From assembly GCA_007859745.1 (NCBI GenBank), contig SMLU01000003.1:310001-374000 (forward strand): a stretch of DNA of 64,000 bases, given 5' to 3'. Origin of the DNA: Phycisphaerae bacterium RAS1 (GTDB lineage: Bacteria; Planctomycetota; Phycisphaerae; UBA1845; Fen-1342). Positions 36,326 through 39,222 of this stretch are shown here, piece after piece (position 1 is the first letter of the stretch; each line of letters opens with the position of its first letter). The position numbers and the translations under genes are program-made. Under the pieces are notes generated by a model. The model saw only the letters and a list, made by a program, of their open reading frames with translations, made no database searches and was not told where the DNA came from.

Positions 36326-37210
36326 ATGATCGGCCTCATTGGCGGCACGGGACTCGGCGAAGCGCTTTTCGGCGAGAACGCCGGCCGCGAAGTGAATATC
36401 GACACGCCCTACGGGCACCCCAGCAGCAGCGTCCGCGTGATCAACTGGCACGGGCTGGACATCGCGCTGCTCGCCCGGCACGGTGAGGGGCACGTTTACA
36501 ATCCCACGCAGGTGCCCTACCGCGCGAACGTCTACGCGCTCAAAGCCCTGGGCGTGACGCACATTCTCGCCAGCGGCGCGGTCGGGTCGCTGCGCGAGCA
36601 CATTCACCCGCGCCAGCTCGTCATCGTGGACCAGATCATCGACAAGACCACCCGCCGACCCTCGACGTTCTTCGAAGGTCTGGCGGTGCACGTCGAGATG
36701 GCCGAGCCTTACTGCCAGCGCCTGCGGCATCTGCTGCTGAGCGTCGCGTCGAAATCCGCCACCAAGGTGCACGAGCGCGGCACGTACGTCTGCATGGAGG
36801 GGCCGGCCTTCAGCACCATGGCCGAGTCGAACATGCACCGCGCCTGGGGCGGCGACGTGATCGGCATGACCACCATGCCCGAAGCCAAGCTGGCGCGCGA
36901 GGCGGAAATCTGCTACGCCGCCATCGCCCTGCCGACGGATTACGACTGCTGGAAGCCGCACGATCCCGACCTGACGCGGCAGGCGCTGCTCGACGAGATC
37001 ATCGGTCACCTGAAGGCGGCGACCGGAAACGCCGTCGCGCTGATGAAGGCGGCGATCGAGGCGATTGCGGCGAACCGCTCGCTGCTCGAGGCGCCGTGCA
37101 CGTGCCGGACCTCGCTCGACCTGGCGGTCTGGTCGGCGCGGAACAAGATCACGCCGGAGACGGCGCGGCACTACAGTGTTCTGCTCCGGCGTTACCTGTC
37201 GCGAAAGTAG
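36326..37210 (+). CDS. mtnP: S-methyl-5'-thioadenosine phosphorylase
   Basis: A 294-residue purine nucleoside phosphorylase of the MTAP type, which cleaves methylthioadenosine to adenine and methylthioribose 1-phosphate in methionine salvage. Phosphate-site motif IGGTGLG at 5-11, the substrate motif LLARHGEGH with VPYRAN at about 64-73, CMEGPAFSTMAES and VIGMTTMPEAKLAREAEICY are all present. LPTDYDCWKPHD at about 211-222 is the MTAP-specific adenine pocket (TDYDCW); the Asp pair favours 6-aminopurines. TGGAGAA lies 6 nt before the ATG. Adenine produced here can be used by the deaminase at 31.6 kb. Confidence 0.9.
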   Translation: MIGLIGGTGLGEALFGENAGREVNIDTPYGHPSSSVRVINWHGLDIALLARHGEGHVYNPTQVPYRANVYALKALGVTHILASGAVGSLREHIHPRQLVIVDQIIDKTTRRPSTFFEGLAVHVEMAEPYCQRLRHLLLSVASKSATKVHERGTYVCMEGPAFSTMAESNMHRAWGGDVIGMTTMPEAKLAREAEICYAAIALPTDYDCWKPHDPDLTRQALLDEIIGHLKAATGNAVALMKAAIEAIAANRSLLEAPCTCRTSLDLAVWSARNKITPETARHYSVLLRRYLSRK

Positions 37211-37446
37211 CGTCGGACCTCCGTGTCCGACGACGGTTCGCGCCGCGCATTCGCCGTCGGACACGGAGGTCCGACGCTACGGCGGGACGTTTCGCGCCGC
37301 GCATTCGCCGTCGGACGCGGAGGTCCGACGCTACGGCGGGACGGTTCGCGCCGCGCATTCGCCGTCGGACACGGAGGTCCGACGCTACGGCGGGACGGTT
37401 CGCGCCGCGCATTCGCCGTCGGACACGGAGGTCCGACGCTACGGCG
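37208..37446. repeat. Family E: 54-bp tandem array
   Basis: An inverted half-site (37208-37236) is followed by about four direct copies of a 54-bp unit (37236-37289, 37290-37343, 37344-37397, 37398-37446, the last incomplete). Units differ by one or two bases. Each holds the palindrome GTCGGACACGGAGGTCCGAC. Because 54 is 18 codons, the recJ frame stays open through it and could read RFAPRIRRRTRRSDATAG repeats, but this is unlikely to be translated. Confidence 0.9.
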
Positions 37447-37473
37447 GCAAGTAACGCCGCAAGGAGGCTCGCG

Positions 37474-39222
37474 ATTCCCGCAGCGCCGCGAACAGCCCGC
37501 GAGTGGATCATCGCGCCGCCCCATCCGCTGCGCGAGAAGCTGGCCCAGCAGGCGCGCGTCGCTCCGCTGCTGGCCCAACTGCTCGCGCAGCGCGGCGTGC
37601 AGTCCGCCGGCGACGTGGCCGGCTTCGTCAAGCCGCTCTTCAACGACCTGCTGGCCCCTGAGCAGCTTCCCAACGCCGTCGCCGCCGCCGCCATGCTCAA
37701 GCAGGCGATCGACCGCGGGCGGCGAATCGTGATCTACGGCGACTACGACGTGGACGGCGTGACCGCAACGACGATTCTCTGGCACGCGCTGCGAATCGCC
37801 GGCGCAGCGGTGAGCTTCTATGTCCCCGGCCGGCTCGACGAGGGCTACGGCCTGAACAGCGACGCGCTCGACAAGATCGCGGCTGAGGGCGATGCCCTGG
37901 TCATCACCGTCGACTGCGGCATCACCGCCATCGATGAGGCGGCGCACGCCCGCAAGCTGGGACTGAGCCTGATCATCACCGATCACCACCAGCCGCGCGC
38001 CGCCCTGCCGGCCGCCGATTGCATCGTGCATCCGACCGCCGGGCCGCAGCAGTCCCCGAATCCCGACCTGTGCGGCGCCGGCGTGGCGCTGAAAGTCGCC
38101 TGGGCGCTGGCCCGCGAGATCGGCGGCGCGACGCGCGTTTCGCCGGCGTTCCGCGAGTTCCTGCTCGACGCCACGGCCTTCGCCGCCATGGGACTGGTGG
38201 CCGACGTCGTCCCGCTCGTCGGCGAAAACCGCATCATCGCCAGCTACGGCCTGAAACGACTGGCCCAGTCCGAAAACGCCGGCCTGAAAGCCCTGATCGA
38301 AGTCTCCGGCCTGAGCGGCAAGGCCAACATGAACGACTACGACATAGGCTTCCTGCTCGCCCCGCGGCTCAACGCCGTCGGCCGCATGGGCCACGCCCGC
38401 CTGGCGGTCGAGCTCTTCACCCGCGCCACGCCCGAGCAGGCGCGTGAAATCGCCCAGACGCTCGACGGCCACAACCGTCAGCGGCAAAGCGTTGAGCGCG
38501 GCATCGCCGCGGCGGCGGAGAAAATGGTCGCGGAGCGCGGCTTCGACCGCGAGTCCTGCCGCGGAATCGTGCTGGCCAGCGCGGACTGGCACGCCGGCGT
38601 GATCGGCATCGTCGCCTCGCGGCTCGTCGAGCGCTTCTGCCGCCCCACCATCCTCATCGCCCTCGAAAACGGCCACGGCCAGGGCTCCGGACGCAGCGTC
38701 CGCAACTTTCCGCTGCACGACGTGCTGCAATGCTGCGGCGAGCACCTGCTCAGCCACGGCGGGCACGCCATGGCCGCTGGCGTCAAGCTGCGCAGCGACC
38801 AGGTCGAGCCCTTCACGCGCGCGTTTCAGGATCAGGCGGCTCAGCGCCTGACCACGGCCGACATCCGCTCCCGGCTGCACCTGGACGACGAGGTCGCGCT
38901 GGGCGAGCTGATGCCCGACGTGCTCGACTCGATCGAGATGATGGCGCCGTTCGGCGTCGGCAACCCGCGCCCGCGCCTGGCGACGCGCGAGGTCGAGCTG
39001 GTCGATCCGCCGCGCGTGGTCGGCAAGAACGCCAATCATCTCCAGTTCTCCGTCCGCGAGGGTCGCGACTTCCGCAAGGCGATCGCCTTCAACGCCGGCG
39101 ACGCCGCCGAGGACTTCCGCCAGCACAAGCGCGTCCGCCTGGCGTTTGAGCCGCTGATCAACGAATGGAACGGCCAGCGTCGGGCCGAGCTGAAGGTCAT
39201 CGACTGGAAATTCGCGGATTGA
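37474..39222 (+). CDS. recJ: Single-stranded-DNA exonuclease RecJ, apparent ATT start
   Basis: A 582-residue 5'-3' exonuclease for recombination and mismatch repair. Motifs are complete: DHH-type YGDYDVDGVTATT (motif I), VITVDCGITA, IITDHHQPR, the CGAGVALKVAW segment and DHHA1 with GSGRSVRNFPL and SHGGHAMAAG. A typical RecJ begins about here. No ATG, GTG or TTG lies in frame between the tandem array and the conserved WIIAPPHPL (residue 11), yet a perfect AAGGAGG sits at 37461-37467, 6 nt before an ATT at 37474. The next in-frame plausible start upstream is a GTG inside mtnP. ATT is therefore the best choice; a lost or mis-sequenced ATG is the alternative. Confidence 0.85.
   Translation: MPAAPRTAREWIIAPPHPLREKLAQQARVAPLLAQLLAQRGVQSAGDVAGFVKPLFNDLLAPEQLPNAVAAAAMLKQAIDRGRRIVIYGDYDVDGVTATTILWHALRIAGAAVSFYVPGRLDEGYGLNSDALDKIAAEGDALVITVDCGITAIDEAAHARKLGLSLIITDHHQPRAALPAADCIVHPTAGPQQSPNPDLCGAGVALKVAWALAREIGGATRVSPAFREFLLDATAFAAMGLVADVVPLVGENRIIASYGLKRLAQSENAGLKALIEVSGLSGKANMNDYDIGFLLAPRLNAVGRMGHARLAVELFTRATPEQAREIAQTLDGHNRQRQSVERGIAAAAEKMVAERGFDRESCRGIVLASADWHAGVIGIVASRLVERFCRPTILIALENGHGQGSGRSVRNFPLHDVLQCCGEHLLSHGGHAMAAGVKLRSDQVEPFTRAFQDQAAQRLTTADIRSRLHLDDEVALGELMPDVLDSIEMMAPFGVGNPRPRLATREVELVDPPRVVGKNANHLQFSVREGRDFRKAIAFNAGDAAEDFRQHKRVRLAFEPLINEWNGQRRAELKVIDWKFAD

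Follow-up and report, generated by a model that had tools for sequence, protein, structure and literature searches.

An AUU codon behind a strong Shine-Dalgarno sequence as the most likely start of recJ in a member of a family of uncultured Planctomycetota

The question raised by this locus is where the RecJ protein begins. The features assigned in the window, meaning the whole stretch of 64,000 nucleotides analysed, were as follows.

36326 to 37210, plus strand: gene for S-methyl-5'-thioadenosine phosphorylase (MTAP), the upstream neighbour of recJ (TIGR01694, 297.5 bits)
37211 to 37231, minus strand: inverted copy of a REP-like palindrome, GTCGGACACGGAGGTCCGACG, abutting the MTAP stop codon
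37232 to 37447, plus strand: array of four 54-bp units with one REP-like palindrome each, a non-coding spacer element
37461 to 37467, plus strand: Shine-Dalgarno (SD) sequence AAGGAGG, 6 nt 5' of ATT
37474 to 37476, plus strand: ATT (AUU), the most likely start codon of recJ, with ATT or ATC at the same site in relatives
37474 to 39222, plus strand: recJ coding sequence, 582 codons from ATT, the start being deduced from conservation

The gene was identified as recJ by its match to TIGR00644 (501 bits, above the equivalog cut-off), and the protein is complete, with the DHH, DHHA1 and RecJ_OB domains present and a stop codon at 39220-39222 in frame with the ATT at 37474. The initial annotation had described a perfect AAGGAGG 6 nt before this ATT and had found no in-frame ATG, GTG or TTG between the array and the conserved region. 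Both observations were confirmed, the spacer being CTCGCG and none of the three codons occurring in frame with recJ between 37103 and 37596. The nearest canonical codons in this frame are GTG at 37096 and 37102 on the 5' side, both within MTAP, and GTG at 37597 on the 3' side, 41 codons on and already within the part that aligns with RecJ proteins of solved structure. The alignment to the solved proteins begins at residue 10-11 of the ATT-started protein, which places the ATT where the protein should begin. Both properties looked for in a gene with a weak start, the lack of an available canonical codon and a strong, well-spaced SD, were found in recJ. The motif alone is only mildly unusual and no proof of a start, as AAGGAGG-N4-9-ATT was observed once in the 64-kb window against 0.19 expected; the convincing part is its conservation in relatives. 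RNA folding of four SD-start regions revealed neither a shared structure nor an unusual one (z -0.9 to +0.25).

The conservation was assessed in 27 genomes from 24 genera of the GTDB family, whose named members are uncultured Planctomycetota, including the 5.5-Mb genome under study (G000). RecJ proteins of the family relatives share 60-68% identity. With one genome per species, 25 recJ starts were readable; G020 is without recJ and G017 was left out. In G017 (L120, L162), recJ has 41% identity and infC a different N terminus, both foreign-looking and probably due to assembly contamination. Alignment of the recJ starts of relatives had been named as one check on the proposed ATT start, and it strongly supported the proposal: ATT or ATC recurs at the homologous site, 5-7 nt behind an SD, in at least the following 9 of the 25 genes.

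G000: ATT behind SD, AAGGAGGctcgcgATT
G018: ATT behind SD, GGGAGGttctcATT
G014: ATT behind SD, CGGAGGtccccATT
G003: ATT behind SD, CGGAGGttgccATT
G022: ATT behind SD, AAAGGAGcgcggccATT
G001: ATT behind SD, AAGGAGGcccgcATT
G013: ATC behind SD, GGAGGaagcacgATC
G023: ATC behind SD, AGGAGcgcaaccATC
G006: ATC behind SD, AGAAGGAagctgatATC

The recJ genes of G026 and G016 probably also start at ATT, because the GTG three codons 5' has no SD and is absent from the nearby G006. In G024 (L119, near 1480), CTG lies behind GGAAGGAAGGAG and the next ATG, GTG or TTG follows 66 nt later, and G007 may likewise use CTG. In G013, G014, G003, G006 and G024 the stretch from the upstream in-frame stop to the conserved region is free of ATG, GTG and TTG. 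Taken by genus, about half of the family has an SD with AUU or AUC, sometimes CUG, at the corresponding position. Canonical codons were found at 12 of the 25 starts (GTG or TTG at 4), a few of them without a good SD, and it was concluded that the weak start is not obligatory in the family; the canonical assignments for G004, G015 and G019, which have no SD, are uncertain. On the RecJ tree the weak-start label was not significantly clustered (8 changes, with 103 of 500 shuffles as low), and the tree fits either one early gain followed by reversions or several gains. A sequencing error, with ATG misread as ATT, is very unlikely because independent assemblies show ATT or ATC.

The enrichment was quantified from the in-frame codons at SD spacings of 4-10, among which 8 ATT and 3 ATC were counted in 57 codons from 26 loci (a table that takes in G017); codons further downstream in the same loci gave 1 ATT and 3 ATC in 104. 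Against the background near gene starts in the genome under study (ATT 1.0%, ATC 2.5%), the binomial P was ~9e-8 for ATT and 4e-6 for ATT plus ATC, values that treat genomes as independent and ignore relatedness. With one row per genus and G017 left out, P was near 1e-6 and 1e-5, respectively. ATC is ~2.5 to 4 times commoner than ATT in this genome, yet ATT outnumbers ATC at the recJ starts, a pattern more in keeping with initiation than with an internal isoleucine.

The same signal was not a general property of the genome. In 864 kb comprising 575 genes, an SD was found near gene onsets for 24% of ATG and 11% of GTG codons, versus about 2% inside genes, while ATT, ATC and CTG near the onsets of the 575 genes showed no SD excess. 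A blind scan of these genes returned only recJ as lacking a canonical start and having a well-placed SD-ATT/ATC near its onset. The same scan of 165 genes from the relative G023 again returned recJ alone, and it was deduced that start choice is not relaxed genome-wide. In both genomes the remaining sampled genes start with AUG, GUG or UUG. The position, conservation and gene specificity of the AUU start are thereby established at the level of sequence comparison. One other gene of the genome under study, with an ATC and an SD-like sequence ~13 nt away, 18 codons off, was judged unconvincing.

Outside the family, all 34 recJ genes from the same order have a canonical start codon, and a weak start was found in 0 of 34. 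More distant recJ loci are nearly all canonical, the exceptions being L108, where the contig begins inside recJ, and L104. The latter (near 2497, Candidatus Atribacteria, MEYH01000080.1) has ATA 10 nt behind AGAAAGGAG with no ATG, GTG or TTG near the start, and is possibly an independent weak recJ start.

Taken together, recJ most likely starts at AUU 37474, and this initiator is presumably decoded as fMet. Three other ways of reading the 5' end were weighed against this, two of which involve the array. In the spacer between MTAP and recJ the palindrome GTCGGACACGGAGGTCCGACG is present four times in direct and once in inverted orientation. It occurs 52 times in 800 kb of the genome, 51 of these copies being intergenic, from which it was deduced that the array is in all likelihood not part of the recJ start and came into the spacer 5' of an SD-ATT that was already there. 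The copies are often arranged as inverted pairs. An Rfam search around the spacer gave only sub-threshold chance matches to the palindromes. The initial annotation had suggested that the original ATG was lost as the array grew, leaving an accidental ATT, and the array does end only 13 bases from the SD. This suggestion was not upheld: relatives at 60-68% protein identity have ATT or ATC at the same place without such an array, the SD is intact and lies with the ATT outside it, and the array copies belong to a genome-wide intergenic repeat. Loss by array growth is considered extremely improbable. Only slightly less remote is an N-terminal fusion of RecJ through the array, from GTG 37096 or 37102 or by a frameshift out of MTAP. 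The recJ frame is indeed open upstream, across the array, as far as 36487, and the 54-bp period preserves it. The array region, however, has a negative coding log-odds per codon (-0.30, versus +0.45 just after the conserved W), the repeat lies outside genes in 51 of its 52 copies, and G006 and other relatives have a stop just upstream of recJ that makes a long extension impossible. Every array unit also contains an in-frame ATT (37249, 37303, 37357 and 37411), none of them behind a good SD.

Gene finders limited to ATG, GTG and TTG would choose a downstream GTG, at 37597 or 37615, the former being the first canonical codon available to them. Initiation there would cost 41 residues, about 30 of which align with solved RecJ and are conserved in the family, and G013, G014, G003 and G006 offer no canonical codon near the coding onset either; a downstream start can hardly be credited.

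MTAP adjoins recJ on the 5' side at 20 of the 24 loci from the family and at none of ~80 recJ loci outside it. Weak starts were found in 11 of 20 genes with this pairing versus 0 of 3 without it, a difference that is suggestive but not significant (P=0.22). Tight translational coupling to MTAP was considered as a main cause and is unlikely here, the distance between the two genes being 263 nt.

The comparison with infC made in the initial annotation proved apt. In most family genomes infC (L163-L187) starts with ATC behind the SD AAAGGA-GGT, and in one with ATT, as would be expected for IF3 autoregulation. The infC gene of the genome under study (L176, G000:C3 near 301188) starts with ATC behind an SD, AAAGGAAGGTgtccgaATC, about 46 kb from recJ. 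IF3 is full-length and intact in the family and, together with the infC ATC start, this indicates that the expected regulator is present.

We therefore consider it likely, with some reserve, that recJ starts at AUU, that the weak codon combined with a strong SD keeps RecJ low, and that this output is sensitive to IF3. The strong SD would recruit 30S subunits to the recJ start, where the weak codon-anticodon pairing at AUU would let IF3 reject most initiation complexes, by analogy with known cases. RecJ synthesis would then begin with fMet and run at a low level, increasing whenever IF3 becomes scarce relative to ribosomes. We hypothesized that the weak start detunes a DNA exonuclease that is probably carried on the transcript of an upstream metabolic gene, MTAP. 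AUU, AUC and CUG would be interchangeable weak codons kept by selection, and would have been exchanged with AUG, GUG or UUG several times. This proposal is consistent with the following data. IF3 discriminates in vitro against weak third-position pairs (PMC10158994) and represses sigR of Streptomyces from a GTC start (PMC5472188). AUU and AUA starts with an extended SD in Staphylococcus aureus give about 10% of AUG expression (PMC13009471). In E. coli, IF3 mutations increased translation from a mutated recJ start (Haggerty and Lovett 1997, as related in PMC2268962).

It may instead be that the weak codon only lowers RecJ constitutively, without physiological regulation by IF3, so that any weak codon would suffice. 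The family recJ genes use ATT, ATC, CTG, TTG, GTG and several ATG, as expected if rate alone matters. E. coli recJ, with its poor GUG start and low expression, was also counted in favor of this. The dominant codons, however, are ATT and ATC, the class rejected by IF3 (PMC5472188, PMC10158994), and GTG and TTG, which would be simpler weak starts, are rarer. A purely constitutive effect is accordingly regarded as a real possibility, but one that we lean against.

The IF3-sensitive AUU start proposed for recJ resembles several known systems. Like infC (AUU in E. coli, AUC in Streptomyces and in this family), recJ has an SD and a lineage-conserved start of the kind discriminated by IF3; infC forms a feedback loop on IF3, whereas recJ, encoding a DNA exonuclease, would be a target only. 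The sigR gene of Streptomyces is likewise not an initiation factor gene and has, behind a strong SD (AGGAGGTG), a rare start that is conserved and was missed by annotation, as with recJ (PMC5472188). It differs in its GTC codon, in encoding an oxidative-stress sigma factor and in that IF3 repression was demonstrated by experiment, control of recJ being proposed by analogy. The staphylococcal cvfC1 (AUU) and ccpN (AUA) share with recJ a conserved non-canonical start and compensation by an extended SD, with low expression as predicted for recJ, but they are other genes, from Firmicutes, with starts mapped by ribosome profiling (PMC13009471). As summarized in PMC13009471, AUU also limits a nucleic-acid enzyme in E. 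coli pcnB (Binns and Masters 2002), a poly(A) polymerase that is not known to be under IF3 feedback. The closest parallel in gene identity is the infC-suppressed GUA mutant of E. coli recJ, in which, according to the account in PMC2268962, IF3 controls the output of a weak start (Haggerty and Lovett 1997); that was a laboratory mutant without an SD, while the family recJ has a natural weak start and a strong SD. No report of a recJ AUU or AUC start was found in the literature searched. From the comparison of start regions, recJ appears to join infC, pcnB, sigR and ccpN as a lineage-conserved weak-start gene, and its case appears new.

To our knowledge, natural non-canonical starts have been documented in very few bacterial genes. 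The recJ start is conserved across many genera and confined to one gene, the very gene once used to select IF3 suppressors in the laboratory, and it indicates that a comparison of start regions across uncultured lineages can reveal conserved weak starts. Gene finders restricted to ATG, GTG and TTG will mis-start or truncate recJ throughout the family. Whether the IF3 level sets the RecJ level has become directly testable. A lineage-wide regulon, in which recJ and infC share IF3-discriminated starts, is put forward tentatively and is on present showing somewhat unlikely. If true, the ratio of IF3 to ribosomes, and thus growth state, would set the supply of single-strand exonuclease, and the regulon would link translation-initiation fidelity to DNA repair.
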